A stretch of 26,061 bases of DNA. It comes from a virus. The stretch is from positions 1 through 26,061 of the IMG/VR virus record IMGVR_UViG_3300007735_000543; one strand, 5' to 3'. Positions within the stretch are counted from its first letter, which is position 1; each line of letters starts with the position of its first letter. A program made the position numbers and the translations under genes. The notes under the pieces are model-generated. The model was given only the letters and a program-made list of their open reading frames with translations, was not told the DNA's origin and searched no databases. Below are positions 3,170-24,740 of the stretch, one piece after another.

Positions 3170-3173
3170 TGTG

Positions 3174-3398
3174 TTAGGTATTAAAAGGATTTGTTGGAAT
3201 AGGTGGTATATATTCTTTTTGCTCACATTCTAACAACCAATTAAAATCAGTTGTGGCAATAATTGCCTTGTCATCATCAGTCAAAAAAGTAAACCAAATG
3301 CCATTTATATCTTGCACACAATTTATAAATTGGTGTGGTGTATAAAATTTATTATATATAAAATTCTTTTGATTTTCAGTTAATTTGTATCCTATCAT
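3174..3398 (-). CDS. Small hypothetical protein
   Basis: A 74-residue acidic protein starting MIGYKLTENQ. Its core, 'FINCVQDINGIWFTFLTDDDK' broken over residues about 22-43, reads as alternating strands and turns, and the C-terminus 'EYIPPIPTNPF' is proline-rich. I do not recognise the family. The start overlaps the stop of the large head-closure fusion gene by 4 bases (ATGA), and the stop lies 4 bases before the glycosyltransferase-like start, so it is coupled to both. A small accessory or partner of the neighbouring long protein is possible, without direct support. Confidence 0.5.
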   Translation of the reverse strand: MIGYKLTENQKNFIYNKFYTPHQFINCVQDINGIWFTFLTDDDKAIIATTDFNWLLECEQKEYIPPIPTNPFNT

Positions 3399-12230: not shown

Positions 12231-12665
12231 TCACTCCATGCCTCCCTCGATCTCTGCCCTCTTCCGCACCTTGTCCGCTAACCATGCTATGACCTGTGCC
12301 TTGTCAGCAGGTACATACTTGCCATCGCTGTCTATATGCAAGGTAACTGGTGCAATGGATGTCTTCTCATTGATAGACTTAGTATCATGACAAGACTTAC
12401 ACAATGCTAATAGATTGTTTAGATTATACATCGAACCATTGCGCGTGATAGGTATCATGTGATCCACGCATCCCTTGTAATCTCCTGGTGTTATGTCAGT
12501 CATAATACCTAATACTATACAGCATTCACATAATGGATTAGCACGACGATAAGCCTTACTCATCTTATGCCATGCGTTGTTATAACTGCCTTGCTCACCA
12601 CTTGGTGTGCGCTGCATCTTAGCTTTGTGTATAATACTACCTATTCCCTTGCTTATGTATGGCAT
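12231..12665 (-). CDS. HNH endonuclease associated with terminase
   Basis: A 144-residue HNH nuclease. The zinc-binding cysteines are C46/C49 (CECC) and C89/C92 ('ALCKSCH'), the HNH residues are in 'GCVDHMIPITRNG' (D68, H69), 'NLNNL' (N83/N84) and H93. Such proteins beside terS are known in HK97 (gp74) and similar phages, where they cooperate with the terminase in cutting cos DNA. Its stop lies next to the cos-like gap and its start adjoins the end of the first glycosyltransferase-like gene. All expected residues are present, so it is probably active. Confidence 0.88.
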   Translation of the reverse strand: MPYISKGIGSIIHKAKMQRTPSGEQGSYNNAWHKMSKAYRRANPLCECCIVLGIMTDITPGDYKGCVDHMIPITRNGSMYNLNNLLALCKSCHDTKSINEKTSIAPVTLHIDSDGKYVPADKAQVIAWLADKVRKRAEIEGGME

Positions 12666-13655
12666 CTATATCCCTTTTAATATCTCCCATCGTTTCTTAT
12701 TCAGTAAGTCTATATGCAACACCTCCTTAACGTAACTCCTTCCTGCTTTAACGTTTGCTGCTTTGTCAATGTTGCCATTAACTATATCAGTAACTAATTG
12801 TAAAAACTGTGTAGGATTATCATAATGTATAACACCAGGTATATTAAACTCTGGGAAGTAATGATCTGCTAATACTGGCATACCATTAGCGATACACTCT
12901 ATGGCAAAGATATTACTTTTAGATAAGTTAAAATCATTACGAACTAATGGATAGAATCCAAAGTCACCTTCTATACGCTGCATAAATGTAAAGTAAACAA
13001 ACATAGAAGACCAATCAACATTAATAGCCTTCTTGTTTAAGTCATACATCATAAACTTATTTAAGCCAAAGAAAGTAACTTCTGTATCCATCTCTATCAT
13101 CTGATTTATTTCAGCCTTGATAGTATGTAAATCTGCAAAGTGTGTTGATCCTCCTCTCCATACAAACCTTGTAGGTGTGTGTCTTTCCTTTACTTCAAAC
13201 ATTGGTAAGTCAGTAGGATTCCAGCCATTAGGTATGACAAACATAGGTATCTTTCCCTGGCACATAGGATAGTACAAATCATATAACTTTCTTGTAGATA
13301 CTATGACAGCATCAGCAAATAGGAAAGTATCTTGTATTTGTTTCTGCACTTGTGGATTAGCAAAGTAATGATTAGCCGGATTATCCTCTGGCACATCCAA
13401 CAGATGATCATCAAAATCAATAATAACTTTCTTTCCCATCCTTTTCGCATCTGCCATTATTCCAAGTGATGCAGTTGAGTTAGGTCGTTGTATTAGGACA
13501 ATATCAGTGTTGTAAATGTCATGCCACTGCGCTCTTTCCTGTTGACAAATAACGTGTTCAAATTTCTTCTGTAAAGCTAACCTTGTAAATGGGCCAAGTG
13601 ACCGATAATAATCAGTTGCCTGACTTTTAGATGATGTGAATGTGGTTAACTTCAT
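12666..13655 (-). CDS. Glycosyltransferase-like protein (GT-B type), paralogue 1
   Basis: A 329-residue protein with a GT-B-like two-domain plan. The N-terminal half has 'FTSSKSQATDYYRSLGP' and 'AKRMGKKVIIDFDDHLL' (residues about 87-103), the middle has 'VIPNGWNPTDLPMF', and the C-terminal half has 'NDFNLSKSNIFAIECIANGMPVLADH' across residues about 244-269, which resembles the donor-sugar region of GT4 enzymes. It is homologous throughout to the protein at 2198-3169. The ATG at 13655 overlaps the TGA of the RHH-like gene (ATGA), so translation is coupled. Substrate unknown; a virion component or a host surface sugar are the main options. Confidence 0.68.
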   Translation of the reverse strand: MKLTTFTSSKSQATDYYRSLGPFTRLALQKKFEHVICQQERAQWHDIYNTDIVLIQRPNSTASLGIMADAKRMGKKVIIDFDDHLLDVPEDNPANHYFANPQVQKQIQDTFLFADAVIVSTRKLYDLYYPMCQGKIPMFVIPNGWNPTDLPMFEVKERHTPTRFVWRGGSTHFADLHTIKAEINQMIEMDTEVTFFGLNKFMMYDLNKKAINVDWSSMFVYFTFMQRIEGDFGFYPLVRNDFNLSKSNIFAIECIANGMPVLADHYFPEFNIPGVIHYDNPTQFLQLVTDIVNGNIDKAANVKAGRSYVKEVLHIDLLNKKRWEILKGI

Positions 13656-13810
13656 TTCTTATAACTATCTAAAACGTGTTCAATAGTCTTTTCAAGTGAT
13701 ACTCTTTTCCTTGTTTTGTAAGAAATATCAATTTGTATCTTCAGTAGCTTTTCGTGAATATCATCACTTAATAACACACCTTTCTTTTTAGCCAACATAA
13801 TTTTTTCCAT
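13652..13810 (-). CDS. Small ribbon-helix-helix-like DNA-binding protein (first late gene)
   Basis: A 52-residue basic protein starting MEKIMLAKKKGVLLSDD. The order strand (KGVLLSD, residues 10-16), helix (IHEKLLKIQIDIS, 18-30), turn, helix (SLEKTIEHVLDSY, 38-50) fits a ribbon-helix-helix repressor of the Arc/CopG/MetJ class, although the family match is by eye. The start is 21 bases from the leftward -7 box and the stop overlaps the glycosyltransferase start by 4 bases, so the short frame is in operon register. As the first product of the leftward promoter, and beside the rightward one, it is a good candidate regulator of the switch. Confidence 0.6.
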   Translation of the reverse strand: MEKIMLAKKKGVLLSDDIHEKLLKIQIDISYKTRKRVSLEKTIEHVLDSYKK

Positions 13811-13827: not shown

Positions 13828-13857
13828 TTGCAAATATATAATAAATATATAACTTTG
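13828..13857 (+). promoter_or_regulatory. Rightward (early) promoter, Bacteroidota type
   Basis: TTG at 13828-13830 and TAACTTTG at 13850-13857 match the Bacteroidota -33/-7 consensus (TTG and TAnnTTTG) with a 19-base spacer. Transcription would start near 13863, about 11 bases before the SSB start codon, giving a very short AT-rich leader. It shares DNA with the leftward promoter at 13831-13860. Confidence 0.75.
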
Positions 13858-13860
13858 CAA
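13831..13860 (-). promoter_or_regulatory. Leftward (late operon) promoter, Bacteroidota type
   Basis: On the minus strand, TTG at 13860-13858 and TATATTTG at 13838-13831 match the same consensus with the same 19-base spacer. The start would fall near 13825, about 15 bases before the RHH-like start codon. The flanks TTGCAAA (13828-13834) and TTTGCAA (13854-13860) form an inverted repeat, so the two promoters are near mirror images. Confidence 0.7.
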
Positions 13861-13873: not shown

Positions 13874-14260
13874 ATGATAAAATTAATCGTTTCGGGAAGA
13901 GTAGGACAAGACGCTGAATTAAAAAGCGTTGGTGACACTACTGTATGTTCATTTAGTGTAGCTCACACTGAAAAGGTGTATGGCCCTAATCCATCAGAGA
14001 AAACAATCTGGGTAGGTTGTAATATTTGGGGAGAAAGAGGAGAAAAGTTAAAGCCATTCATTATTAAAGGCACTTACATAGTAGTTGAAGGAAGTGGTGG
14101 AGTTAATGCTTATTCACAAAAGAATGGAGAGCCAGCCGCTGTTATTAATTGCCGCGTGACTTCCCTTGAGTTTGGTGGAAAGCCTACCGCAGAACCTACA
14201 CCATTAACCACGATGCCTCCAGTTGGCAAGGTTGACATGGATGGTGATTTACCATTTTAA
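13874..14260 (+). CDS. ssb: Single-stranded DNA-binding protein
   Basis: A 128-residue SSB. The OB-fold part runs from 'MIKLIVSGRVGQDAELKSV' through 'VCSFSVAHTEKV', 'KTIWVGCNIWGERGEKL', 'FIIKGTYIVVEGSGGVNAY' to 'INCRVTSLEF' (residues 1-102). A Pro/Thr-rich linker leads to the acidic tip 'MDGDLPF', the standard SSB tail that recruits replication and repair partners. It coats single-stranded DNA during phage replication. It is the first gene after the rightward promoter, so it is made early. The length is short for a bacterial SSB but normal for phage versions. Confidence 0.93.
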   Translation: MIKLIVSGRVGQDAELKSVGDTTVCSFSVAHTEKVYGPNPSEKTIWVGCNIWGERGEKLKPFIIKGTYIVVEGSGGVNAYSQKNGEPAAVINCRVTSLEFGGKPTAEPTPLTTMPPVGKVDMDGDLPF

Positions 14261-14281
14261 TAAAACATTAAACAAATCAGT

Positions 14282-15082
14282 ATGAAAAAAAACACTTTCG
14301 AATGGGAGATAATAACTCCCATCACACCAACTAAAACAAAAATTAAAGGCTATTTGCTTTTATTTATGATTGTTTCTTCCGTGTTCATCTCCCTTGTTGG
14401 ACAAGGCTACAAAGCTACAAAGGTATCAGCTCCTAATCCTGCAAACGAATATCCGCAAGATAATTGGGAGACTATTGATATGAATAATCTACCAGGTAAG
14501 CAGATAAAAAACATGGATACAGAGGAGTTAAGAGTATTTTTAGAGGAACAAGGCTTTAGAAGATTACAGAATAAAAGTCTGGTAGAGTTAAGACGAATTT
14601 GGTTAGGCTTTATGTATGAAGATTTTTTTTACACGATGCACAAGAAAACAGATCTTCCTATCTCTGTTATCTATGCCTTCTTTATCATTGAGGCTACCAA
14701 TGCCGGAATAGAAAGTAAGTTGATGGCAAAGGCACTTAATCCTGGTGGAATTAAATACAGAGGCACCGGTAAGAAGATGAATGCGATGGATGATTGCTAC
14801 AAGAATGGTAAAAAGATACCTTGCGCCTTCCAGGCTTTCTCTTCCTACAATGCCATGGTGCAAGGTTGGGCAGATGTTTTAAACTTACCGAGATATAAGA
14901 ATTGCAAGAGATTTGTGTTTAGTAAATACAACAGAGGCATGAGCGCAAAGCAGATAGTAGATGCTACTTGTAAATGCTTTTATAAGTCTGGATACCACAC
15001 AAGTAATCTGTGGAAAGTAAGGTCTAATTTATCAACAGAATACTGGACAGTTAAAGCCAGTTTCCCCGAAATGGAATATTAA
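14282..15082 (+). CDS. Membrane-anchored glucosaminidase-like lysin (GH73-like)
   Basis: A 266-residue protein with an N-terminal cytoplasmic stretch, one membrane segment at residues about 23-42 (YLLLFMIVSSVFISLVGQG) and a GH73/N-acetylglucosaminidase-like domain from about 110. The putative catalytic glutamate is E137 in 'YAFFIIEATNAGIESKLMAK' (131-150), followed by 'ALNPGGIKYRG' and 'AFQAFSSYNAMVQGWADVL', the family's usual segments, and 'RYKNCKRF'. It should cut peptidoglycan glycan strands. The hydrophobic segment is short and rich in Ser, Gly and Val, which would also fit a signal-arrest-release anchor. It lies in the early rightward cluster right after SSB, rather than in a late lysis cassette. 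Confidence 0.72.
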   Translation: MKKNTFEWEIITPITPTKTKIKGYLLLFMIVSSVFISLVGQGYKATKVSAPNPANEYPQDNWETIDMNNLPGKQIKNMDTEELRVFLEEQGFRRLQNKSLVELRRIWLGFMYEDFFYTMHKKTDLPISVIYAFFIIEATNAGIESKLMAKALNPGGIKYRGTGKKMNAMDDCYKNGKKIPCAFQAFSSYNAMVQGWADVLNLPRYKNCKRFVFSKYNRGMSAKQIVDATCKCFYKSGYHTSNLWKVRSNLSTEYWTVKASFPEMEY

Positions 15083-15083
15083 A

Positions 15084-15359
15084 ATGATTAAGATAACAAA
15101 AATGACACCTGTTGAATGGCTTGAAATGGATTTCAAAGAATGCTATGATTGGGATCAAAGCGTAGAAAATACTTTTAATAAAGCTAAACAGTTTGAATTT
15201 GATATTATGGATGAATTTGGTAAATTTATTTACGACAAAAAATTTATTTTTAATAATGAAAATAATTGCTTGGAAAGTGTATGTCATAATTGGAAATATA
15301 ATACACTAAGCGGTTTATATAAATATTTTTTAAGAGAAAGAAACAAATACAATGATTGA
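15084..15359 (+). CDS. Hypothetical protein
   Basis: A 91-residue acidic and aromatic protein starting MIKITKMTPVEWLEMDF. The first 50 residues look helical ('NTFNKAKQFEFDIMDEFGKF'), the last part is mixed and ends 'YKYFLRERNKYND'. No known motif is visible. It begins one base after the lysin stop and overlaps the methyltransferase start by 8 bases, so it is translated as part of this cluster. Confidence 0.55.
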   Translation: MIKITKMTPVEWLEMDFKECYDWDQSVENTFNKAKQFEFDIMDEFGKFIYDKKFIFNNENNCLESVCHNWKYNTLSGLYKYFLRERNKYND

Positions 15360-15945
15360 TAACAAATTCTTTTTTGACAAATCAGTAGAACTTGGCTTTA
15401 CAACGCGTAATTATGAATCACTTGTAAATCTGCACATTAATGGTGCAAGAACATTGCAGATAATGGGCTGCAAAAGTGTGTTTGAGTTTGGTAGTGGGTT
15501 AGGTTTCTTTTTATCTGCCTGCCAAAGGATCGGTTTATATAATTATGTTGGCTATGATATTAATCCTTATGAAAGAGACTTTGCTATAAGTAAAGGTATT
15601 GAGCCATCTAAATATACTTTAGCAAAAGATAAGTTTAAATTATCTGGTAAGTATGATGCTATTTATTCTACTGAAGTCTTTGAACACATGGTAGATGGAG
15701 AACTAAATGCTGTTTTGCCTAAATTATACAAAGCCTGTAATAAGTATTTTTATTTTACATCTACTCCTTTTACATCTACTATTCCAGAATGGGACATTGA
15801 ATGGGGACATATAAACATTAAGCAAAAAGACGAATGGATAGCATTGTTTAAAAAGCATGGCTTTGACTATTTACAAGATGCTACTGATGTGTGTTCCTGG
15901 GGATTGTTATTTAAAAAGAATGAGAATCATGCAAAAGGTAAGTAA
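15352..15945 (+). CDS. Class I SAM-dependent methyltransferase
   Basis: A 197-residue methyltransferase. Motif I is 'SVFEFGSGLGFFLSA' (residues 42-56, with the glycine-rich loop 47-51), the acidic residue after strand 2 is D69 in 'VGYDINPY', and 'YDAIYSTEVFEHMVDG' (about 100-115) is the motif IV region of small-molecule type methyltransferases. There is no NPPY/DPPY motif, so it is unlikely to be a DNA adenine or N4-cytosine methyltransferase, and no PCQ motif of C5 enzymes is seen. The substrate is unknown; sugar or protein O/N-methylation are options. It overlaps the next gene slightly. Confidence 0.78.
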   Translation: MIDNKFFFDKSVELGFTTRNYESLVNLHINGARTLQIMGCKSVFEFGSGLGFFLSACQRIGLYNYVGYDINPYERDFAISKGIEPSKYTLAKDKFKLSGKYDAIYSTEVFEHMVDGELNAVLPKLYKACNKYFYFTSTPFTSTIPEWDIEWGHINIKQKDEWIALFKKHGFDYLQDATDVCSWGLLFKKNENHAKGK

Positions 15946-16552
15946 AAAGAGATATACTCCAGAAGAAATAGAGTACATAAAAAATAACTTTCCTTTTAAG
16001 CCAACCAAGGAATTACAAGCAGTTTTAAATCATTCTGTAAGTTCTATTTCTGTCGTTGCTCACAAACTTGGTTTAATTAAAAATAGAGCATACATAACTG
16101 AGCATTACAGAAAAATATCTTTAAGAGCATGGACAAAAGATCGGGAAAGAATAAATTGTTTTAAAAAAGGCAGCACACCCTGGAACAAAGGAAAGAAGCT
16201 ATCTCCCGAACACAGAGCAAAGATTGTAACCACATTTGTAAAAGGTAATAAACCTCACAATCAAAAGCCAATAGGTACATTGAGATGCAATTATGGATAC
16301 AATGAGATTAAATACACTAATCACAAATGGATGGCTGTTTCCCGTTACAACTGGGAACAAGTGCATGGCCCTGTGCCCAAAGGCATGGTAGTGTTTAAAA
16401 TGGATGGTGATAGGTTAAATGATGACATCAACAACCTCTGCCTTGTTTCCAGGAAGGACTTGGCTGTGTTGAATCGTAACCATGCTAAATTGCCACAGGA
16501 ATTAAAAGAAGTGCAAATCTTGGTAAACCAGATTAAAGACAAAATAAAATGA
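15920..16552 (+). CDS. HNH endonuclease with N-terminal helix-turn-helix-like domain
   Basis: A 210-residue protein. Residues about 11-55 ('YTPEEIEYIKNNFPF', 'LNHSVSSISVVAHKLGL') resemble a Myb/HTH-like DNA-binding part. Residues about 88-105 ('WNKGKKLSPEHRAKI') are typical of NUMOD-type linkers. Residues about 134-178 form an HNH_3-like core: 'HKWMAVSRYNWEQVHGPVP', 'GMVVFKMDGDRLNDDINNL' (one residue short of the limit each). In it the second histidine position is occupied by F-K, a variation seen in some phage HNH proteins. It is probably a free-standing homing-type nuclease. I chose the ATG at 15920, which overlaps the methyltransferase by 26 bases; 15929 is possible, 15857 unlikely. Confidence 0.72.
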   Translation: MRIMQKVSKKRYTPEEIEYIKNNFPFKPTKELQAVLNHSVSSISVVAHKLGLIKNRAYITEHYRKISLRAWTKDRERINCFKKGSTPWNKGKKLSPEHRAKIVTTFVKGNKPHNQKPIGTLRCNYGYNEIKYTNHKWMAVSRYNWEQVHGPVPKGMVVFKMDGDRLNDDINNLCLVSRKDLAVLNRNHAKLPQELKEVQILVNQIKDKIK

Positions 16553-16710
16553 GTAATGAACTATTGGATGAATTTAGCCTATGGATTGCTAAAGAAGAAT
16601 ATTTCCTAAGTTATATAAAAGGAACATGGATGAAGGATTTATACAACAAACCTTTGCAGATGTCAGAGTTATATCAAGTATTTTTAAAAAGTAAACAAAA
16701 ACAAAAATGA
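16549..16710 (+). CDS. Small hypothetical protein (53 residues)
   Basis: A 53-codon frame starting MSNELLDEFSLWIAKEEYF and ending KSKQKQK. It is fixed by ATGA overlaps at both ends (start with the HNH stop at 16549-16552, stop with the next start at 16707-16710), which is strong support for a real gene despite the size. It is aromatic and charged and probably helical. I do not recognise it. Confidence 0.6.
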   Translation: MSNELLDEFSLWIAKEEYFLSYIKGTWMKDLYNKPLQMSELYQVFLKSKQKQK

Positions 16711-16934
16711 GAATTACCAAAGATGAAGCTCGCATATTAGCTCAAGCATTAAATGAGTATAAGTACAATGTAGTTAATGAATTTAAAGAGTTTAAAGAGT
16801 TAGGTGTATTTAATAAACTACACGATTTACAGTATAAATTAGAAATGTTTGGCGATGATAAACGCAGATATGGCAGAACATCGCAGGATAGTTTAATTGA
16901 TTGTTTTAAAAGATTTGTAAACCAAAATAAATAG
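16707..16934 (+). CDS. Small hypothetical protein
   Basis: A 75-residue protein starting MRITKDEARILAQALNEYK. It looks mostly helical, with a long amphipathic helix at residues 4-35 and 'RTSQDSLIDCFKRFVNQ' at the C-terminus. Similar 'ITKDEARILAxAL' starts occur in other phages of this host group, to my knowledge without assigned function. It shares an ATGA overlap with the preceding small gene. Confidence 0.6.
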   Translation: MRITKDEARILAQALNEYKYNVVNEFKEFKELGVFNKLHDLQYKLEMFGDDKRRYGRTSQDSLIDCFKRFVNQNK

Positions 16935-16941
16935 TAATCAG

Positions 16942-17181
16942 ATGAAAAACAAAATAAGCGACCTCCGCAACCACCTTTTCGTTGTACTCGAAGAACTCAG
17001 CGACCCCGACTCCCACTATGACCTTGAAAAAGCAAAGGTCATTGCCAACGTTGCCCAGACTATTATAAACTCTGCCTCTGTAGAGAATCAGTATTTAAAG
17101 ATAGTAGGAGGTAGTCAGGGCAGTGGATTTATTGAGGAGGGGAAAATGGAGAATGTTAAACAGTTAAACGAAAAGAACTAA
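16942..17181 (+). CDS. Conserved-type small phage protein
   Basis: A 79-residue protein. 'KISDLRNHLFVVLEELSDP' (residues 4-22) and 'DLEKAKVIANVAQTIINSA' (about 27-45) are two helices that match a small protein found near replication or regulatory genes in many phages; function unknown to me. Codon use is more GC-rich here than in the neighbouring genes (a run of Cs and Gs at about 16955-17025), which may mark a recent arrival. The stop overlaps the next start (TAATG). Confidence 0.65.
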   Translation: MKNKISDLRNHLFVVLEELSDPDSHYDLEKAKVIANVAQTIINSASVENQYLKIVGGSQGSGFIEEGKMENVKQLNEKN

Positions 17182-17438
17182 TGTATATGATTAACGAATT
17201 TATTATATTAAGGTTAAAGGTGTATGAAATATGCTTAATTTTTCATGAAGTCATGCCAGACAATTATGAATTTATTGATTTAGATGATATTTCAATTTCT
17301 TTAGATACTGAATTAAATTATATATGTGTTAGAAATAATCACCCTTTTTATAATGCAGAACATTTAAGATTTGGCGCAGAATGGTTAAATAGGTCAAATA
17401 CTGAAATTACTAAAATGGTGAAAAAATTAAATACCTAA
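17181..17438 (+). CDS. Small hypothetical protein
   Basis: An 85-residue acidic protein starting MYMINEFIILRLKVYEIC. The N-terminal third is hydrophobic but contains charged residues, so a membrane segment is uncertain; 'YEFIDLDDISISLDTELNY' is acidic and beta-like. No family recognised. The next ATG at 17187 is an alternative start. It follows the preceding gene with a 1-base overlap and precedes a 45-codon gene by 14 bases. Confidence 0.5.
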   Translation: MYMINEFIILRLKVYEICLIFHEVMPDNYEFIDLDDISISLDTELNYICVRNNHPFYNAEHLRFGAEWLNRSNTEITKMVKKLNT

Positions 17439-17452
17439 CAAAAGATTAGTAA

Positions 17453-17590
17453 ATGGAAAACTTCATCAAAACATCCCTTGACAAAGTTTTGACATACGAA
17501 ACTCCTCCAGCCATTGTAAAATACATGGAAATGCAAAGCGCACTTGGGAATCCGCCGTGGAAAAAAAAAGGGAAAACAAAAACAAAATAA
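17453..17590 (+). CDS. Small hypothetical protein (45 residues)
   Basis: A 45-codon frame starting MENFIKTSLDKVLTYETPPA and ending NPPWKKKGKTKTK. The Trp plus lysine-rich end and a helical start suggest a small nucleic-acid- or protein-binding peptide. Position supports it: it fills the gap between two clear genes, with the next start one base after its stop. A run of nine A lies near the end (17561-17569). Confidence 0.5.
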   Translation: MENFIKTSLDKVLTYETPPAIVKYMEMQSALGNPPWKKKGKTKTK

Positions 17591-17591
17591 T

Positions 17592-18005
17592 ATGAAAATT
17601 AACATGAATGAAATTTGGAATGAAGAGTTTTTAAGCTATGAAGCTAAATATGGAGAAGAACCGAAAATTATAGGGAAACACAATGTTTTTAAACATGTAA
17701 TTATTTGGCATGACCCAAAAACTACTCCAGTTTCTCAAGTCGTTCACTGGTCAAAATCTGAAGATTTGCAGCGTGATATGGTTGATTTAATGTTATTGAT
17801 AAAACATGAATCAGAAGATGAAAACGTTTTACAATTTGCAACAGGTATTTACATTGAAAGAGATAATATTCCAGAACCTATTTATGAATTTAGATATTGC
17901 GATGAAACAAAGAATTATATGTATGCTCCACCAGAGGGAGAAATTATTGCTTTTTCTTTAGTTTGTGATTTGCCTTTAATTATGAAATTTAATGAAAATG
18001 AATAA
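17592..18005 (+). CDS. Hypothetical protein
   Basis: A 137-residue acidic protein starting MKINMNEIWNEEFLSY. It is rich in Glu, Asp, aromatic residues and beta-like stretches ('VFKHVIIWHDPKTTPVSQVV', 'IAFSLVCDLPLIMKF'). I do not recognise a family; small SUFU-like or other acidic proteins would look similar. The start at 17592 gives 1-base spacing from the preceding gene; a start at 17544 would read out of frame through it. It is the last gene before the non-coding RNA region. Confidence 0.5.
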   Translation: MKINMNEIWNEEFLSYEAKYGEEPKIIGKHNVFKHVIIWHDPKTTPVSQVVHWSKSEDLQRDMVDLMLLIKHESEDENVLQFATGIYIERDNIPEPIYEFRYCDETKNYMYAPPEGEIIAFSLVCDLPLIMKFNENE

Positions 18006-18023
18006 TATCTAAAAGAAATTTTG

Positions 18024-18034
18024 TATATTTTTTG
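18024..18034 (+). promoter_or_regulatory. Promoter-like sequence before structured RNA A
   Basis: TATATTTTTTG at 18024-18034, within a block from about 18012 that closely repeats the sequence at 18241-18267 in front of RNA B (GAA, ATTTTGTATATTT, then GATTAAA). Here three extra Ts separate TATATTT from G, so the TAnnTTTG match is broken. No -33 TTG is evident. Confidence 0.4.
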
Positions 18035-18040
18035 ATTAAA

Positions 18041-18216
18041 AAATATAATTAACGGTAAGTAGGCTTGAAAGTAGCCAGCTTTTAAAGAGTTGTCCCTGAA
18101 ATAATGGGAGCGTACGGACAAAAAGTCAGCATCCTGGGAATATCGTTATAGGGTGTCGCACGTAGGTTGTAACGAGCCTCGTATCTTGGTGTTAAAACAC
18201 ACCGTTAATTTTTTAT
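18041..18216 (+). ncRNA. Structured RNA A, candidate novel ncRNA
   Basis: A 367-base gene-free stretch begins here. A perfect 10-base-pair closing helix joins AATTAACGGT (18047-18056) to ACCGTTAATT (18201-18210). Inside are hairpins GGCT/AGCC (18062-18065/18073-18076), TTGTCC/GGACAA (18090-18095/18116-18121), CATCCT/AGGGTG (18130-18135/18150-18155), ACG-AGG/CCT-CGT with one bulged T (18160-18166/18177-18182), and GTGT/ACAC (18189-18192/18197-18200). The loops of the third and fourth pair over 7 bases (TCGTTAT 18143-18149 with GTAACGA 18169-18175), a kissing interaction. A T run follows at 18209-18214, as in a terminator. Base composition is GC-richer than the flanks. It contains no plausible open frame. 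I cannot match it to a known RNA family from memory. Confidence 0.6.
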
Positions 18217-18253
18217 TATTAAAAAACAAAAGAAATAAGTAAAAAGAATTTTG

Positions 18254-18261
18254 TATATTTG
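18254..18261 (+). promoter_or_regulatory. -7 promoter element before structured RNA B
   Basis: TATATTTG is an exact TAnnTTTG match. A start about 6-7 bases later places the first base at about 18267, two bases before the first hairpin of RNA B. No -33 TTG is seen at the expected position. The surrounding block is a near copy of the one at 18012-18040. Confidence 0.55.
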
Positions 18262-18266
18262 ATTAA

Positions 18267-18366
18267 ACTTTTTGCAGGAAGCACTACCCAGCAAAAGGTA
18301 TTTGAGGAAATCATTTACCTCATAAGCCCGTAAAGAGTAGTGCCTTTATGGGCTTTATTAATTTTA
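18267..18366 (+). ncRNA. Structured RNA B with loop-loop pairing, candidate sRNA or leader
   Basis: Three hairpins: TTTTGC/GCAAAA (18270-18275/18291-18296, 15-base loop); GAGG/CCTC (18304-18307/18318-18321), with AGGTA/TACCT as an alternative; and a 12-base-pair stem AAGCCCGTAAAG/CTTTATGGGCTT (18324-18335/18344-18355, one G-U) with loop AGTAGTGC. The first loop contains GCACTAC (18281-18287), which is perfectly complementary to GTAGTGC (18337-18343) in the last loop, a 7-base kissing or pseudoknot contact. The last stem is followed by TTATTAATTTTAT, a terminator-like tail. The GIY-YIG-like gene starts 7 bases later, so it may be a leader that controls that gene rather than a separate RNA. Confidence 0.6.
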
Positions 18367-18372
18367 TAGATT

Positions 18373-19131
18373 ATGACAGAAAATAAATATACTTACGTTT
18401 TATTTACACAAAACAGAGATAACAGCACTATAGGTGCGTATAAATTTGGATTTTCAAGAGATATAGAAGGAGTTTATAAAAGATGTAAAAATGGTAATAC
18501 ATGGTTAACTCATCTTGAAGTTGTATGTTATTGCGATTTTAATATTATTACAGAAAAACAATTAAAACATAAATATAAAAATAGTAGGAAAACTAAAGAA
18601 TGGTTTTCATTAACTAAAAGTGATTTGCAAGAAATACAATCATTTATGTCAAAGAAATTTAGACATGAAAATGTTGAAAATAATAATTTGATATATTTAA
18701 AATCAAATAACAATTTATTGTATAATGAAAAAATTATTAATAAAAAAATAGATAATAATATTACAAGGGAAGTTCATAAAGAAATTTATTTTATTGATGG
18801 AATATCATATGGATGGGGATGTGTTATATCAAGTGGTTTTGGCAAATTTTCTAAAGGATTTGCAAAATTAAATAATAATTTTTGTGATTTTATTACAGAA
18901 AATTATAGTATAGAAAACGAAAGATTTTATCATTTTTATAATGAGTTTTTAAATTGTCATAAAATGTACCCATATCATTTACTTAGAGTATTATTATTTT
19001 CTGTTTTAATGAGTGAAATACTTACTGATAAAGTATTAGGTACTGATATATTTATAAAACACGCATTAAAAAATTGCAATGGTAATCCTGAGGATTATGT
19101 TTACGGAAAAAAATATTTAGCATTACAATAA
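18373..19131 (+). CDS. GIY-YIG-like protein (T5orf172/Mug113 type N-terminus)
   Basis: A 252-residue protein. Residues 6-90 fit the T5orf172/Mug113 branch of the GIY-YIG nuclease fold: 'YTYVLFTQNRD' (first strand), 'YKFGFSRDIEG' (23-33, the degenerate YIG strand with K24 and G26), R37, 'TEKQLKHKYK' with E61, and 'TKEWFSLTKSDL' (74-85, W77/F78). Residues 100-252 are Asn/Lys/Ile-rich and of unknown function. Codon use is extremely AT-rich (long A and T runs), unlike the neighbouring replication genes, which suggests separate acquisition. It follows structured RNA B directly and precedes the initiator gene by 5 bases. Confidence 0.6.
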   Translation: MTENKYTYVLFTQNRDNSTIGAYKFGFSRDIEGVYKRCKNGNTWLTHLEVVCYCDFNIITEKQLKHKYKNSRKTKEWFSLTKSDLQEIQSFMSKKFRHENVENNNLIYLKSNNNLLYNEKIINKKIDNNITREVHKEIYFIDGISYGWGCVISSGFGKFSKGFAKLNNNFCDFITENYSIENERFYHFYNEFLNCHKMYPYHLLRVLLFSVLMSEILTDKVLGTDIFIKHALKNCNGNPEDYVYGKKYLALQ

Positions 19132-19136
19132 ATAAT

Positions 19137-20069
19137 ATGATAAACATAGATACAAGGCTTTTAAATCAGGTAACACCTGACCAACTTTACCTACTCTGCC
19201 AGATAGTTAATTTTATGAATGAGAATAAAATGTGTTTTCCTTCAAACAAAAAACTAATAATGCATAGTAAATTTTCAGAATCTAAAATTTTAAGAGTTAA
19301 AAATGAATTGGTAGCTAAGAAAATTATAAGCGTTAAGCAAAGATTTAGAGCAGATGGCAGCCAAACATCTAACCTTTATAGAATAGAATCTGATTACATT
19401 GGTGTGTTTGTAACAGGTAAAAATATGTCAAATTTGGATACCTCCCCATTCACTGATGAAGAGGGGGACACCTTCACCACTGAAGGGGGGACACCTTCAA
19501 GACAGAAGCCCCTTGAAGTATTAGCTAATAGAAGTATTAACAACAAAGAAGTATTAGTAGGTTGTGAATTTGAAAATTCACCGCCTTTTGAAACAGAAAT
19601 TAAAAATCCTTTCTCCCGCCAATCTTACCATGATTCTCTGTCCTATGAGCAAGGTGAAAAAGAAAAAGAGAAAATTTCCGGTAAAAGAGAAAAAGAAAGA
19701 GAGCCTTCGGAAACCTACCTCTGTTTCTCCGCCTTCGCCTCTACCTATGAACGCTTAGCCGGTGTTACCTATCCCTCTGACAATGGCAATTACATTATGA
19801 CTGCAAAGGATGGTTCAAACTGTAAAAAGTTAGTAGCATGGCTAAAGAAGGTAAGTGCCAGTGAACAGGCACCAGAGGACATGGTCACAATGTTTACAAC
19901 GGCTGCATGGCAGATAAGCGATAAGTGGCTAAAGGCTAATTTCACTATTAGCAACATCTACTCCCAGGCAAATAACATTTATACTAAATTTATGTATGCC
20001 AACCCGATAGCAAAGGAAAGGAAAAGGCAGGAGGAGATTGACAAATTAGTAAATGAATTTACATTATGA
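19137..20069 (+). CDS. Replication initiator with winged-helix N-terminus (DnaD/O-like)
   Basis: A 310-residue protein of phage replisome-organiser type. Residues 1-90 form a winged-helix-like domain: 'TPDQLYLLCQIVNFMNENKM', 'FPSNKKLIMHSKFSESKILR' (recognition helix), 'KNELVAKKIISVKQRF', then 'TSNLYRIESDY'. Residues about 95-190 are a disordered charged linker ('GEKEKEKISGKREKE'). Residues about 195-300 form a helical domain ending 'WLKANFTISNIYSQANNIYTKF' across about 268-289, which would bind the helicase or its loader. The linker codons carry iteron-like repeats (19457-19556), as the lambda O gene does. It overlaps the next gene by 4 bases. No helicase or polymerase gene is in the window, so host enzymes may be used or the genes lie outside. 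Confidence 0.7.
   Translation: MINIDTRLLNQVTPDQLYLLCQIVNFMNENKMCFPSNKKLIMHSKFSESKILRVKNELVAKKIISVKQRFRADGSQTSNLYRIESDYIGVFVTGKNMSNLDTSPFTDEEGDTFTTEGGTPSRQKPLEVLANRSINNKEVLVGCEFENSPPFETEIKNPFSRQSYHDSLSYEQGEKEKEKISGKREKEREPSETYLCFSAFASTYERLAGVTYPSDNGNYIMTAKDGSNCKKLVAWLKKVSASEQAPEDMVTMFTTAAWQISDKWLKANFTISNIYSQANNIYTKFMYANPIAKERKRQEEIDKLVNEFTL
19457..19556 (+). repeat. Candidate replication origin: iteron-like repeats within the initiator gene
   Basis: Two long direct repeats, TGAAGAGGGGGACACCTTCA (19457-19476) and TGAAGGGGGGACACCTTCA (19481-19499), each an imperfect dyad, lie 24 bases apart. An inverted pair CTTCAAG/CTTGAAG follows (19495-19518). Then come three exact GAAGTATTA repeats at 19515, 19531 and 19548, spaced 16 and 17 bases, in AT-rich DNA. 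The layout (repeats then AT-rich DNA, all in the linker codons of the initiator) parallels the lambda origin. Confidence 0.55.
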
Positions 20070-20299
20070 CACAATCACCCAAACAAAAGGCGAAAGAACT
20101 TTTCAACCATTACCACAACATCATCCAGGACATCGGAGGAGAACTTGGACAAGAGATCCTTGTATCTATCCTGGCAAGGCACTGCGCTCTGTTTGCGGTA
20201 AACACATTATTAAACGATAAGCATCCAACAGAAGATTTCAATGAGACATATTATTATTGGACAGAAGTAGAACACGAATTAGAACACTATGAAGAGTAG
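20066..20299 (+). CDS. Small hypothetical protein of the replication cluster
   Basis: A 77-residue, mostly helical protein: 'PKQKAKELFNHYHNII' (residues 5-20), 'ILVSILARHCALFAVNTLLN' (about 31-50), and 'YYYWTEVEHELEHYEE' at the end. This layout of three helices with 'KQKAKEL', 'A..CAL.AV' and 'YW.EVE.EL' is a common small phage protein of unknown role. The start overlaps the initiator stop by 4 bases, and its end overlaps the next gene by 11 bases. Confidence 0.65.
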   Translation: MTQSPKQKAKELFNHYHNIIQDIGGELGQEILVSILARHCALFAVNTLLNDKHPTEDFNETYYYWTEVEHELEHYEE

Positions 20300-20507
20300 G
20301 GAGGAATACAACGCATACATGAAAGCGTATATGCAAAATAGGAGAGATAATATGACATTTGAAGAATGGAGGGAATTTAGAGACAAAAACAACGCTTACA
20401 AAAGAAAGAAATATGCTGAACGCACACCGGACCAAATTGAAAAACACAGGGAATATCAGAGGAATAAACAAAAATTTTATTACTTTCTAAAAAAACAAAG
20501 CAAATGA
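20289..20507 (+). CDS. Charged helical protein, short relative of its downstream neighbour
   Basis: A 72-residue, very basic protein made of helical units with aromatic and charged residues: 'YNAYMKAYMQNRRDNMT', 'EWREFRDKNNAYKRKKY', 'EKHREYQRNKQKFYYFL'. The pattern Y-x-R-N-(K/R) recurs here and in the protein at 20504-21016, so the two are related. Proteins of this kind often precede HNH or other nucleic-acid enzymes; a DNA-binding role is plausible. It overlaps both neighbours by a few bases. Confidence 0.55.
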   Translation: MKSREEYNAYMKAYMQNRRDNMTFEEWREFRDKNNAYKRKKYAERTPDQIEKHREYQRNKQKFYYFLKKQSK

Positions 20508-21016
20508 ACTACACAGATTTACCGGAAGAAAAAAGAGAAAAACTAAAGGAATATCAAAGGAATTATCAAAGGAATAAGCGCGCGAATATGACAGAGGAGG
20601 AAAAGCAGAAAAAGCGCGATTATTTTAAACTGTATAGAATAGCTAATAGGGAGAAAATTAATACTTATGCAAGCAACTGGAAATACAACATACCTGCTGA
20701 TAAATTAGAGAAAAGAAAGCGATGGCAAAAGGAATATTATGAAAAGAACAAAGAAAAGATAATACAGCGAATAAAAGAAAGATATGCCTCATTGACAGAT
20801 GAACAGAGGGAAAAGCACAATGAGAACAAAAGGCAGCGGCATAAAATATGGTATTTTCTTCTGGATGATGATAAAAAAAGAAAGAAGATAGATATATGTA
20901 GAAGGTGGATTGATAAAAACATGGAACACCACAAAGAAAGAATGAAACAATATTACCAACAAAACAAAAAAAAGAAAGATGAATCTGGCAAAGTACCAAC
21001 CGCAAAACCAGGATGA
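20504..21016 (+). CDS. Charged helical repeat protein
   Basis: A 170-residue protein with Lys, Arg, Glu and Tyr as dominant residues. Motifs recur at roughly 25-residue steps: 'KEYQRNYQRNKRANMTEEE', 'KRDYFKLYRIANREKINTY', 'RKRWQKEYYEKNKEKI', 'EKHNENKRQRHKIWYFL', 'ERMKQYYQQNKKKK'. The series 'M(T/S)xEE..' followed by a basic helix suggests long, partly coiled-coil DNA or RNA binding. Similarity to the preceding 72-residue protein suggests duplication. The C-terminus overlaps the start of the next gene by 38 bases, longer than other overlaps here. Confidence 0.55.
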   Translation: MNYTDLPEEKREKLKEYQRNYQRNKRANMTEEEKQKKRDYFKLYRIANREKINTYASNWKYNIPADKLEKRKRWQKEYYEKNKEKIIQRIKERYASLTDEQREKHNENKRQRHKIWYFLLDDDKKRKKIDICRRWIDKNMEHHKERMKQYYQQNKKKKDESGKVPTAKPG

Positions 21017-21704
21017 AAAAACCATCATTGAAGCAAGGCCTAACAGGATAGCCAACATTGAGCCTAAAGACGCATTCAGAAATGTACTCAATGTTATCAG
21101 CAGTATCTTCCCAGTGTATGGCATTGATGGTGATCTGACATTTTATTCAACAGTTACAAAAGAAATAGTAAAAACCTTTGGGCAGATAGCTGCCAATGAA
21201 ATTGAAATTGCCTTCCGCCTCTTCGCTGCCCAGTCCCTTGACCTGGATGATGATGTTAAATTTTATGGTAAGGCAAATATGCACACGATAGGAAAAATAC
21301 TAAATGCCTACCTTGTTTACCGGAGGAAGATCATTGCAGCTCACGACAACGAAGTTGCTGCCCTTCGGCACAATGCCAACATGGAAGAAAAGGCAAGGAA
21401 ATCAAGGGAGGAACTATATGCCAACTTTCCAACCATGCTAAAGGAATTTAAAGGGAAAGACTACACCACAGTGCCATTATATTGGTATGATATGTGTATT
21501 CAATTTGGCATGATAGAATACCAGGAAGGAGAAAAAAGAGCATTATGGGAGGAAGCACAGGCCATAGCATTGAAAGAACCACCAGAGAGCAAGGATCTTA
21601 TGACCATCAGAAGCCATGCAAAGAAAATAGAACAGGGCAATACAAAGAGAGCAGCCGTTATTGCCCAGCAACTGGCAGTATGGAGGAAGGTGTTAAAGAA
21701 ATAG
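20979..21704 (+). CDS. Replication-cluster protein of unknown function
   Basis: A 241-residue, mostly helical protein starting MNLAKYQPQNQDEKTI. It contains 'FYSTVTKEIVKTFGQIAANE' (residues about 53-72), 'AFRLFAAQSLDLDDDVKFYG' (about 77-96) and 'MHTIGKILNAYLVYRRKI', then a coiled-coil stretch ('HNANMEEKARKSREELY') and a lysine-rich end. I do not recognise a domain, but proteins of this shape follow the initiator in phages of this host group and might help load the helicase. It is the last gene of the long rightward operon; an intrinsic terminator follows within 25 bases. Confidence 0.6.
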   Translation: MNLAKYQPQNQDEKTIIEARPNRIANIEPKDAFRNVLNVISSIFPVYGIDGDLTFYSTVTKEIVKTFGQIAANEIEIAFRLFAAQSLDLDDDVKFYGKANMHTIGKILNAYLVYRRKIIAAHDNEVAALRHNANMEEKARKSREELYANFPTMLKEFKGKDYTTVPLYWYDMCIQFGMIEYQEGEKRALWEEAQAIALKEPPESKDLMTIRSHAKKIEQGNTKRAAVIAQQLAVWRKVLKK

Positions 21705-21727
21705 TAACTGGTTTAAAATGTGTTTAC

Positions 21728-21759
21728 AAGGTGTGGGGAGTTGACCTCACACTTTTTTT
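21728..21759 (+). terminator. Intrinsic terminator closing the replication operon
   Basis: GTGTGGGG (21731-21738) pairs with CCTCACAC (21745-21752), 8 base pairs with one G-U and a 6-base loop, followed by seven Ts (21753-21759). A-A on the 5' side can extend the stem with the first Ts. Confidence 0.85.
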
Positions 21760-21812
21760 AAATTATTTTTATATTTTTATATAATTTATATACATTGTAT
21801 TTATTTTATTTG

Positions 21813-21820
21813 TATCTTTG
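21813..21820 (+). promoter_or_regulatory. Promoter for the isolated small gene
   Basis: TATCTTTG matches TAnnTTTG exactly in a very AT-rich stretch (21758-21812). A TTG at 21795-21797 is only 15 bases upstream, shorter than the usual 19, so the -33 element is uncertain. The start would be near 21827, leaving a leader of about 40 A-rich bases before the start codon at 21868. Confidence 0.65.
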
Positions 21821-21867
21821 AAAGGTCAACAAGACAAAAGCATTCATCACAACAAAAAACAAACATC

Positions 21868-22005
21868 ATGAATCAGAAAGTTATTTTAACAAACAAGACA
21901 ACAAACAAAGTATCCTTACGCGTATTTCGTTCAAAAAAAGAATGTAATTCATTTATGAATAATTGGGCTAATACATACACATTTAAAGTTTTAACTACAT
22001 TTTAA
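21868..22005 (+). CDS. Isolated small basic protein (45 residues)
   Basis: A 45-codon gene starting MNQKVILTNKTTNKVSLRVF and ending TYTFKVLTTF. It is basic, with a two-strand N-terminal half and a helix around 'KKECNSFMNNW'. No family recognised. It stands alone between an intrinsic terminator upstream (21728-21759), a TAnnTTTG promoter (21813-21820) and another intrinsic terminator directly downstream (22011-22038). A dedicated transcript suggests high or specially timed expression, as for host-takeover or counter-defence peptides, but that is inference. Confidence 0.65.
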   Translation: MNQKVILTNKTTNKVSLRVFRSKKECNSFMNNWANTYTFKVLTTF

Positions 22006-22010
22006 TTTAA

Positions 22011-22038
22011 AGGGCAGTCCATCAACTGCCCTATTTTT
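22011..22038 (+). terminator. Intrinsic terminator after the isolated small gene
   Basis: AGGGCAGT (22011-22018) pairs perfectly with ACTGCCCT (22025-22032) around CCATCA, followed by ATTTTTTA. Eight base pairs, GC-rich, with a six-T tract, 5 bases after the stop codon. Confidence 0.88.
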
Positions 22039-22059
22039 TATCACTATAAACAAAACATC

Positions 22060-22308
22060 ATGACACCACAAGAAAGAGATGAAAAAATTGTAGGTATTCT
22101 TACAAAATGTTGTATTAATACCCTTGTGAGTAATCTATTTGACAAAAATGGAGTAAAAGTTTACGAGGAATTTTTATACGAACTTAACCAACTACCGGTA
22201 AACGAACAAGATTATACGCGCTGTAATAGTTCTCACGCTTTTTTACATAAAACTGCAGTTGAGTATTTGCAAAAAACAATAGTATTTAACGAAGAACACA
22301 GAAAATAA
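22060..22308 (+). CDS. Small hypothetical protein
   Basis: An 82-residue protein starting MTPQERDEKIVGILTKCC. It is helical at both ends, with 'LFDKNGVKVYEEFLYELNQL' in the middle (residues about 27-46). I do not recognise a family. It starts 22 bases after the preceding terminator tract with no clear promoter match in between, so how it is transcribed is open. The last base of its stop is the first base of the next start codon. Confidence 0.55.
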   Translation: MTPQERDEKIVGILTKCCINTLVSNLFDKNGVKVYEEFLYELNQLPVNEQDYTRCNSSHAFLHKTAVEYLQKTIVFNEEHRK

Positions 22309-22574
22309 TGAACCAGGCATCCCAAGACATTTTAGATTATATTGTAGATAATCACCTTGCCCTCCGTGACATTACCGATGAAGGCATAAGCAAGGCTATT
22401 GACGCACTGTTTAATTTTAATGATCTATTACCAAAAGAACAAGTGTTATTTAATAGCATAATGGCACAGGCAATAGATTTTGAATGGATTGCCCAGCAGT
22501 TGCAAAATTGGGCAGAAGAAGAAGAATTAAAAAGATTAGACGCTCAAAGAGAAGATTATTATGACAATCACTAA
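22308..22574 (+). CDS. Small hypothetical acidic protein
   Basis: An 88-residue acidic, helical protein: 'SQDILDYIVDNHLALRDI', 'DEGISKAIDALFNFNDLLP', 'QAIDFEWIAQQLQNWAEEEE'. It has no recognised motif. The start shares a base with the preceding stop and it overlaps the next gene by 14 bases, so this trio is coupled. An adaptor or inhibitor role would suit the acidity but is not supported by more. Confidence 0.55.
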   Translation: MNQASQDILDYIVDNHLALRDITDEGISKAIDALFNFNDLLPKEQVLFNSIMAQAIDFEWIAQQLQNWAEEEELKRLDAQREDYYDNH

Positions 22575-22977
22575 AGCCAAAGTTAAATATAGTGCAGGCG
22601 CACCAAGAGAAGGACAATATGGCCCATCCATTAACATCCTCGTTGTCTTTGCCGATGGCAAGGAAGCAAGAATATATGGAAAGCCTGGCGATCCGATACA
22701 GAGTTTAAAGCAGGGAGAAGTAATAGATGTCATAGATGATAAAGGTAAATTAAAGTATGTTCAAAGCGAGCCAACGACACAGCAGGCATTGGCATCAATG
22801 GAAGATACAGATAAAGAGAAGCCTGACCTTGCAGCTATTGCCTTTGAAATATCTTCTATTTATACACAGGCATACATTGACATTTATAATAAATTAATTG
22901 AGGCAGAGATACCACATGACAATGCAACTGCAGCAACTTCTACTATCTTTATACAAGTGTTTCAAAAATTGAGATGA
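22561..22977 (+). CDS. Hypothetical protein with OB-like N-terminus
   Basis: A 138-residue protein. Residues 1-66 ('ITKAKVKYSAGAPR', 'INILVVFADGKEARIYGKPG', 'LKQGEVIDVIDDKGKLKYV') read as a small beta barrel of OB type, which would fit binding of DNA or RNA. Residues 70-138 are helical ('DLAAIAFEISSIYTQAYIDI'). It precedes the PD-(D/E)XK nuclease gene, and such OB-type proteins often accompany phage recombination nucleases, but this is inference. A terminator hairpin begins 13 bases after the stop. Confidence 0.58.
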   Translation: MTITKAKVKYSAGAPREGQYGPSINILVVFADGKEARIYGKPGDPIQSLKQGEVIDVIDDKGKLKYVQSEPTTQQALASMEDTDKEKPDLAAIAFEISSIYTQAYIDIYNKLIEAEIPHDNATAATSTIFIQVFQKLR

Positions 22978-22989
22978 ATGACTCTATAT

Positions 22990-23017
22990 GTGCCAGTATC
23001 TGCACTGGCACTTTTTT
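22990..23017 (+). terminator. Intrinsic terminator/attenuator before the nuclease gene
   Basis: GTGCCAGT (22990-22997) pairs perfectly with ACTGGCAC (23004-23011) around ATCTGC, followed by six Ts (23012-23017). It lies in the 59-base gap before the nuclease start at 23037. No promoter matching TAnnTTTG is seen between the terminator and the start, so the nuclease may depend on read-through. Confidence 0.85.
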
Positions 23018-23036
23018 AAAAATTAAAACAACTACT

Positions 23037-23939
23037 ATGCTTAAATTACCAAAAGAACACTTATCTGTATCACAGATTAATCTCTGGGAAAGCGATCCCA
23101 TTGCATACCAAAAGAAATACTTTATCGGCATTCCCGATCCTCCCTCTCCTTTCCTTGAATTTGGCAAACAATTTGCAAAAGACATAGAAGATTATGCGGC
23201 AGGTGTGCAAAGAGATTTTAACTTTCCAGAAGGCTTTTTAGATATGACTTTGATTTATCCTTATGTAGAATACAAATTAGAACATGATTTTGGAGATTTC
23301 AAAATGTTAGGATATATAGATAATTGTTCTAAAGATTTTGAAATGGTTATAGATTTCAAGACCGGCACTGCTCCCTGGTCAACACAGAGACTGCAAGAGT
23401 CTTTGCAAATGCAGACTTACTCTTTAATACTTTGGTACAAATTCGGAGTAATGCCAACCTCTGTGATCAGCTACTGGAAGACAAAGTTAAAAGGTAAAAC
23501 ATTGTCATGGGCTGGTGAACATGAAAGTTTTATGTATGTATTTAATACTGAAGAATTAACTGCCACAGAGGCAAGAATAAGGAAAGCAGCGAAAGAGATA
23601 AGTGAAGCATACGAAAGATATCAAAATAGTGCAATAGGTGAAAGATTTTTCAAATATGCTGAGATTACAAAAGAGTTAAAAGAATTGGAAACAAAAAAGG
23701 AATTAATAAAAAGTGATTTAATTGATTTATTGAAAGATAATAAAATGGCTATGGATGTGCATGGTAGTTTAGTATCTTATTCCACATACCAAAGAAAGTC
23801 TTATTCATTCTCTAAAAATATATTAGATAAGGAATGTGAAATAGAGGCAATGAAGAAGGAAGAAATAGCCACCGGTATAGCAGAAGAGAAAACAAAGACA
23901 GTCACACTTATATTAGTAAAAGATGAAGGAGTGGAATAG
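23037..23939 (+). CDS. PD-(D/E)XK nuclease, RecB/Cas4-like
   Basis: A 300-residue nuclease. After 'LSVSQINLWESDPIAYQKKY' (residues 9-28, the helix typical of RecB-family domains) the active site reads G92-Y-I-D95 and D106-F-K108 in 'VIDFKTGTAPW', followed by the QxxxY-type motif 'QMQTYSLILW' (Q124, Y128). Residues about 195-240 are helical and charged. The family degrades or trims DNA ends, often in recombination with a partner. I start at ATG 23037: the in-frame ATG at 22974 would place the terminator hairpin within the coding region. The gene ends 4 bases before the next likely start. Confidence 0.82.
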   Translation: MLKLPKEHLSVSQINLWESDPIAYQKKYFIGIPDPPSPFLEFGKQFAKDIEDYAAGVQRDFNFPEGFLDMTLIYPYVEYKLEHDFGDFKMLGYIDNCSKDFEMVIDFKTGTAPWSTQRLQESLQMQTYSLILWYKFGVMPTSVISYWKTKLKGKTLSWAGEHESFMYVFNTEELTATEARIRKAAKEISEAYERYQNSAIGERFFKYAEITKELKELETKKELIKSDLIDLLKDNKMAMDVHGSLVSYSTYQRKSYSFSKNILDKECEIEAMKKEEIATGIAEEKTKTVTLILVKDEGVE

Positions 23940-23943
23940 TAAG

Positions 23944-24333
23944 ATGTTAGAGATACAGGCTTTCTGCGAAGAAGTAAATGCCTGGATAACTACTGCACCA
24001 TCAGCAGAGATGTTGGATGAATGCGACGAATACCTACGACAGTTATCTGCCTACTATTCCAGGTACACAGTGATAAGCGGAATGAATGAAAGTATCTTTG
24101 CCCAGATGATGATGATCTGCATTCGCGATATGCCAGAGGAGGAGTATAAAAGAATAAAACATTCCTCTACTTTGACAGATTACTACGTTAAAGGAAAGTA
24201 TCCTAAAGCCACAGCTATCTTTGAACAGTGCAGAGCTGTGCAAAAGTTACTACTTGTCACATCTGATAATTACAGAACATTGCTTAGTAGCTTTAGACAG
24301 GAAAGAATATTAGTTAGCCATATGGCAACATAA
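23944..24333 (+). CDS. Hypothetical helical protein
   Basis: A 129-residue protein from MLEIQAFCEEVNAW, mostly helical ('DECDEYLRQLSAYYSRYTVI', 'SIFAQMMMICIRDMPEEEYK', 'FEQCRAVQKLLLVTSDNYR'). I do not recognise the family, although its place after the nuclease suggests a partner. I start at 23944, 4 bases after the nuclease stop; an ATG at 23923 would extend it by 7 residues and overlap the nuclease by 17 bases. Confidence 0.58.
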   Translation: MLEIQAFCEEVNAWITTAPSAEMLDECDEYLRQLSAYYSRYTVISGMNESIFAQMMMICIRDMPEEEYKRIKHSSTLTDYYVKGKYPKATAIFEQCRAVQKLLLVTSDNYRTLLSSFRQERILVSHMAT

Positions 24334-24442
24334 AGATATTTGCAGACCTCGGAGTTAGGTGATTTACTTAATCAATTAAGCATTTCATTCACATTTAACT
24401 GCGTCAGAGGATGAATTGACAGCTTGGAATAGACAGGCAAAT
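24334..24442 (+). other. Non-coding gap before the tRNA-like genes
   Basis: These 109 bases have no convincing frame or promoter. They hold weak hairpins (TGATT/AATCA near 24369-24383, CTTAAT/ATTAAG near 24377-24390, and GTCA/TGAC enclosing GAGGATGAAT near 24404-24421), which might be leader structure for the tRNA-like transcripts. Confidence 0.4.
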
Positions 24443-24603: not shown

Positions 24604-24617
24604 CTAAAATTGTAATT

Positions 24618-24734
24618 ATGGAAAAAGATAAATCATGGTTGATATTTCCAATGCTTACTTATAGAAAATATAAAGACGGTACAAATGAAATCGGGTTTGG
24701 CTGGTTAAATAGAACTTATTGGGTTAAATGGTAA
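24618..24734 (+). CDS. Tiny Trp/Tyr-rich frame between the tRNA-like genes
   Basis: A 38-codon frame starting MEKDKSWLIFPMLTYRKYKD and ending NRTYWVKW. It contains four Trp and three Tyr, and fills the gap between the two tRNA-like genes with 6 bases left before the second. No family recognised. The size makes it uncertain, though many verified small genes in this window are like it. Confidence 0.4.
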   Translation: MEKDKSWLIFPMLTYRKYKDGTNEIGFGWLNRTYWVKW

Positions 24735-24740
24735 ATAAAA

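Follow-up and report, generated by a model that had tools for sequence, protein, structure and literature searches.

A putative 33-bp interlocked, mirror-image promoter element at the junction of two genome arms in a predicted Bacteroidota phage

In phage lambda, two transcription arms meet at the divergent promoters PR and PRM, which are arranged back to back and separated by three operators. In Tn10, the divergent promoters of tetA and tetR overlap and lie beside the gene for the regulator that controls both directions. Bidirectional promoters, often located between divergent genes, have been described in E. coli and other prokaryotes by Warman, Grainger and colleagues; those of the E. coli type share a -10 element and have starts ~10, 18 or 23 bp apart (PMC12825309, PMC10268837), and polymerase competition at them emerges only upon strong activation of one direction (PMC12825309). 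Promoters of the Bacteroidota housekeeping sigma factor carry TAnnTTTG at -7 and TTTG or TTG at -33 (PMC7366714, PMC9723704). Here we analyse a 33-bp element, TTGCAAATATATAATAAATATATAACTTTGCAA, at positions 13828-13860 of a 26,061-nucleotide stretch of viral DNA (IMG/VR record IMGVR_UViG_3300007735_000543, positions 1 to 26,061; hereafter the window). The element lies between a rightward gene for a single-strand DNA-binding protein (SSB) and a leftward gene for a 52-aa ribbon-helix-helix (RHH)-like protein. We consider it probable that this is a two-way promoter read by the housekeeping RNA polymerase of a Bacteroidota host, with mutually exclusive directions; a regulator may tip the balance between them.

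Both promoters are laid out on the same 33 bp. The rightward promoter reads TTG-19-TAACTTTG on the plus strand (13828-13857), with its -33 TTG at 13828-13830 and its -7 box at 13850-13857. The leftward promoter reads TTG-19-TATATTTG on the minus strand (13860-13831), with its -33 TTG at 13858-13860 (TTTG when 13861 is included) and its -7 box at 13831-13838. Each box matches the TAnnTTTG of Bacteroidota sigma-A, and the upstream elements agree with the TTTG or TTG expected at ~19-21 bases, the rightward one as a TTG at 19 bases and the leftward one as a TTTG whose TTG is at 19. On the plus strand, CAAATATA begins at 13831, immediately past the TTG, and CAA begins at 13858, immediately past TAACTTTG; each promoter's -33 adjoins the -7 of the opposite promoter. 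Between the two -7 boxes lies an AT-rich core of 11 bp (13839-13849), a candidate regulator-binding site. The ends of the element form a perfect inverted repeat with 7-base arms (TTGCAAA at 13828-13834 and TTTGCAA at 13854-13860), and 22 of the 33 positions are identical to those of its own reverse complement. This mirror symmetry arises from the Bacteroidota consensus, because the TTTG of one -7 is followed directly by CAA, which is the TTG of the opposite promoter read on the other strand. The coordinates, 19-base spacers, consensus matches, abutting -33 and -7 elements and inverted repeat had all been reported in a preliminary description of this locus, and all are exact. Its expected transcript starts each differ by one base from those predicted here: since the -7 box occupies -12 to -5 in F. 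psychrophilum (PMC9723704), the predicted starts are ~13862 and ~13826, ~36 bp apart.

The element departs from the bidirectional promoters of Warman, Grainger and colleagues in that its predicted starts neither flank nor fall within a shared -10 at a distance of ~10-23 bp; its -7 boxes stand 11 bp from each other, with either -33 flush against the opposite -7, and the predicted starts are ~36 bp apart. This interlocked -7/-33 geometry is a variant of known two-way promoters. Like those of tetA and tetR, the phage promoters overlap, diverge and adjoin a candidate regulator gene; unlike them, they show mirror symmetry of -7 and -33, and the candidate regulator is of another fold and only presumed to bind. 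As in lambda, divergent promoters occupy a two-arm junction; unlike in lambda, they are interlocked, no CI/Cro pair was identified, and no tyrosine recombinase or integrase (PF00589) was found in 13 records, which may be incomplete (serine integrases and repressors were not part of the search). Both phage directions resemble Bacteroidota housekeeping promoters in having the full -7 consensus with a TTG at 19 bases, and differ from the promoters in the excerpts of PMC7366714 and PMC9723704, which are single, with no mirrored pairs described there, in being interlocked on the same 33 bp.

The mirrored layout is not due to chance. The window contains one mirrored promoter pair, the element itself; neither 300 simulated windows nor 200,000 random 63-mers with matching base composition produced any. 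Lone matches to TTG-17-21-TAnnTTTG occur at close to chance frequency (3 and 6 in the window, 2.0 and 2.7 on simulation), so the weight is placed only on the mirrored pair and its conservation. A scan for E. coli sigma-70 promoters returned nothing exceeding shuffled sequences.

Conservation was assessed among relatives of the SSB in IMG/VR (78 loci), including a close set of 13 phages of which the window is one. None of the positions of the 33-mer varies within the close set, compared to 31/52 and 27/49 of the third-codon positions in the two flanking genes (58/101 together; Fisher 2e-10). The positions outside the consensus boxes, including the AT-rich core, are just as constant (0/17 variable; Fisher p 4e-6 against the same third-codon positions); kinship inflates both p-values, the contrast with adjacent codons being internal. 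That these non-box positions do not vary goes beyond what a promoter would need and hints at an additional constraint, for example from a bound protein. Both -7 boxes and a gap of 11 or 12 bases are retained across distinct loci, in both of the orientations in which the element occurs (see below).

In the arrangement that we favor, the host housekeeping polymerase would bind the element in either orientation. Bound rightward, it would produce the replication-arm transcript, with SSB first; bound leftward, it would produce the structural-arm transcript, with the RHH-like gene first. One bound polymerase would span both promoters, and the directions would exclude each other because each -33 abuts the other -7 and the starts are only ~36 bp apart. 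On steric grounds, simultaneous binding of polymerase to both promoters is very likely excluded. The importance of this exclusion would depend on promoter strength, and the full consensus match in both directions would favor competition. Loss of one promoter with no effect on the other, which the preliminary description counted as decisive against its proposal, is the usual result at basal strength in E. coli, because competition there needs strong activation (PMC12825309). A DNA-binding protein that recognizes the conserved AT-rich center would shift the balance between the directions and restrain its own operon; the RHH-like product is the likeliest such protein, and that it acts in this way is possible, if somewhat short of probable. 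A role as a switch would require such a regulator.

The best candidate regulator is the RHH-like protein encoded by the first leftward gene (13652-13810, minus strand), judging from its predicted structure, weak structural matches and the association between its type and the orientation of the element. The model of the 52-aa protein has an extended stretch followed by helices at 16-33 and 39-51 (pLDDT 80), and its best structural alignments, weak but of one kind, are to the RHH domains of MatP (Z 4.3) and NikR (Z 3.2). Foldseek with this model gave no significant match, and the sequence matched no family in Pfam and no entry in PDB.

The element is found in two orientations: TAACTTTG points toward SSB in the lineage of the window (orientation A) and toward the RHH gene in a second lineage (orientation B). 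Orientation tracks the type of RHH gene in 41/41 distinct loci, and it changes once on the RHH tree (100/100 support) and two to three times on the SSB tree. The pattern TTGCAAATATAN{7,12}TATAACTTTGCAW, itself derived from these sequences, has 51 matches in 2.9 million IMG/VR contigs, every one of them between SSB and an RHH-like gene. Alignment of A cores with B cores gives scores of 21-27 when one is flipped and 11-21 when it is not, while 98 unrelated mirror elements reach a maximum of 25 (median 17). Judged by the core, the null for a flip is thus only moderate, and the junction-specific pattern is the stronger point. We read the two orientations as an apparent old inversion of the element, or as convergence under a common regulator, linked in either case to the RHH gene and not to an active switch.

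Mirror promoters of the same spacing recur elsewhere. The strict mirror pattern, searched in viral contigs at gaps of 0-30, had 19 of its 80 matches at gaps of 11-13, and 14 of these 19 lie between divergent genes, compared to 3 of the 61 at other gaps (Fisher 4e-9). Four of the 19 belong to this phage group; the unrelated ones include portal-gene and helicase-gene junctions. In other phages, a mirror promoter separates a portal-like gene from a divergent one (L086 1470, L110 3470, L144 1792), a second case at the start of structural genes. An excess at a gap of 5 (11/80, viral contigs) was rejected as promoters, the matches lying within genes and six being copies of one sequence. A recurrent inverted repeat, TTGCAAATGTAATTCATACCTTTGCAA, was seen within a reading frame in L082, L084, L095, L102, L104 and L128.

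Bacterial genomes show the same preference. Among 80 matches at gaps of 10-14, 73 carry a Bacteroidota title, 56 have a gap of 12, and 39 lie between divergent open reading frames by a crude gene call. With the genomes used for defining the groups excluded, 10 of the 13 matches over gaps of 0-30 in 197 Bacteroidota genomes fall at 11-13 (p 2e-8), and 298 Bacillota genomes yielded only two matches to the strict pattern. The strict form is rare per genome, and its spacing is clearly non-random. The preliminary description had noted no earlier account of such a compact switch in phages of this phylum. The novelty for the phylum was overstated, as similar mirror elements are present in other phages and in Bacteroidota genomes; still, the open-access literature yielded no paper that describes interlocked promoters, whether for Bacteroidota or for the phages of that phylum. 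The arrangement thus recurs in Bacteroidota, apparently without having been described from them.

Several observations weigh against an exclusive, regulator-tipped promoter read by a Bacteroidota polymerase. In 15 loci from farther relatives, the divergent boxes are 41-46 bases apart, showing that interlocking is not obligatory, and in other relatives SSB lies within an operon. The -33 TTG of the TATATTTG promoter is absent in some relatives (leftward in the L015 group, rightward in orientation B), being replaced by ATG, while the TTG of the rightward promoter is retained in orientation-A relatives. The two directions are therefore probably unequal, and one of them may be inherently the stronger, given that the -33 of the TATATTTG promoter is either TTG or ATG. 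In one contig (L011, upstream of SSB at 4670, and L354, near 3096), the RHH gene is shortened near its start, beginning with MEKIISFKTGKR and lacking the strand and the first helix, and the 33-bp element is unchanged, which speaks against an indispensable function of the RHH-like protein. A loose two-box pattern (N11-13 without TTG) occurs ~284 times in 99 genomes compared to ~240 for a reversed control, a slight excess, so any claim of a class depends on the strict form. Finally, no infected host was found directly. A Bacteroidota host is suggested by the promoter type and by the scarcity of Shine-Dalgarno-like sites, which precede only 2/36 window genes, the state expected in a Bacteroidota phage. 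When TerL, SSB and the glycosyltransferase were compared with named phages by tblastn, only distant matches emerged, mostly outside Bacteroidota phages.

Some of these observations would also fit a compact two-way promoter without a switch, in which both arms are fired modestly, with hardly any polymerase competition, and their timing is governed by something other than the element (internal promoters, replication, a late activator or RNA decay). At basal strength, the two-way promoters of E. coli are free of competition (PMC12825309), the relatives with 41-46 bp between boxes manage without interlocking, and -7-like boxes are present within the arms (for example at 18254 on the plus strand and 9528 on the minus strand), which is also a caveat to the idea that both arms hang upon the element. 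However, the invariant spacer positions exceed the needs of a plain promoter, and the element is the only gene-proximal site with a -7 and a TTG at 19 bases in the window and in two ~38 kb relatives. We regard a promoter without a switch as an unlikely, though serious, explanation.

Alternatively, the TTGCAAA/TTTGCAA repeat could serve chiefly as the operator of a dimeric repressor made by the phage, with only one promoter real. This would account for the perfect 7-bp inverted repeat and for the adjoining RHH-like gene, whose type matches the orientation of the element in every locus. It seems improbable, however, given that both -7 boxes persist, at constant spacing to each start codon, in either orientation, that one end of the repeat has decayed to ATG in several lineages, and that the mirror layout stands beside other genes in unrelated phages and genomes. 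We give very little credence to an invertible, phase-variable promoter that flips within a phage population. Closely similar cores do lie opposite relative to the SSB and RHH genes in two lineages, and the ends of the element are an inverted repeat, but that repeat is just 6-7 bp, and orientation is fixed for each RHH type (41/41) with a single, fully supported change on the RHH tree; on the fixed orientation, phase variation was rejected. Invertible Bacteroidales promoters are recognized by both orientations in one lineage together with a recombinase; neither was seen here, PF00589 being absent from the 13 possibly incomplete records.

We also offer a broader proposal, tentatively: interlocked mirror promoters with 19-21-base spacers may form a distinct, Bacteroidota-specific two-way class enabled by the TTTG-rich consensus, with one RHH-tuned 33-bp element here driving both arms, flipped in evolution and functional both ways. 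Should both directions fire, polymerase would have to choose, on a natural 33-bp DNA, between the replication and structural genes of a virus, and a whole ~38 kb genome would depend on the outcome. Such firing would extend two-way promoters to a geometry favored by the Bacteroidota consensus, supply a phylum-wide list of testable examples, and give genetic toolkits for Bacteroidota a small bidirectional part. The flipped lineage also serves as a natural experiment: it bears on whether one half can stand in for the other.

The element separates two arms of opposite strand. The rightward arm (13874-25935, plus strand) begins with SSB (13874-14260; Pfam SSB 4e-13, phrog_44) and continues with an endolysin-like glucosaminidase, a methyltransferase, a replication initiator, an exonuclease and thymidylate synthase. 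The leftward arm (minus strand, from 13810 down to 65) encodes the 52-aa protein, a glycosyltransferase, an HNH endonuclease, the small and large terminase, portal, head protease, major head protein and connector. We presume from gene names that the rightward arm is early and the structural arm late. The records behind L007 (38,236 b) and L019 (37,235 b; start point elsewhere on the same map) each have one divergent junction, which is the element, and one convergent junction. It is reasonable that two genome arms hang on a 33-base segment, because the element is the sole divergent junction in these two ~37-38 kb relatives. The preliminary description had the whole early/late decision hang on this segment. 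The divergent promoters, their Bacteroidota-type consensus, overlap and strong conservation, the two arms and the sole divergent junction bear it out in part, and exclusion would have to set the timing for the rest to follow.

The convergent arm junction was located in L318 near 17979-18039 (37097-37157 of the record) and in L319 at 16881-16941, and a two-way terminator would be expected there. The glucosaminidase/endolysin-like gene lies at 14282-15082, immediately past SSB in the presumed early arm, an odd site for a lysis gene. The structural arm contains two glycosyltransferases of one family (phrog_7162), at 12666-13655 and 2198-3226. Two HNH endonucleases are candidate homing endonucleases, one at 12231-12665 beside the terminase genes and one at 15857-16552, where it overlaps the end of the methyltransferase gene.
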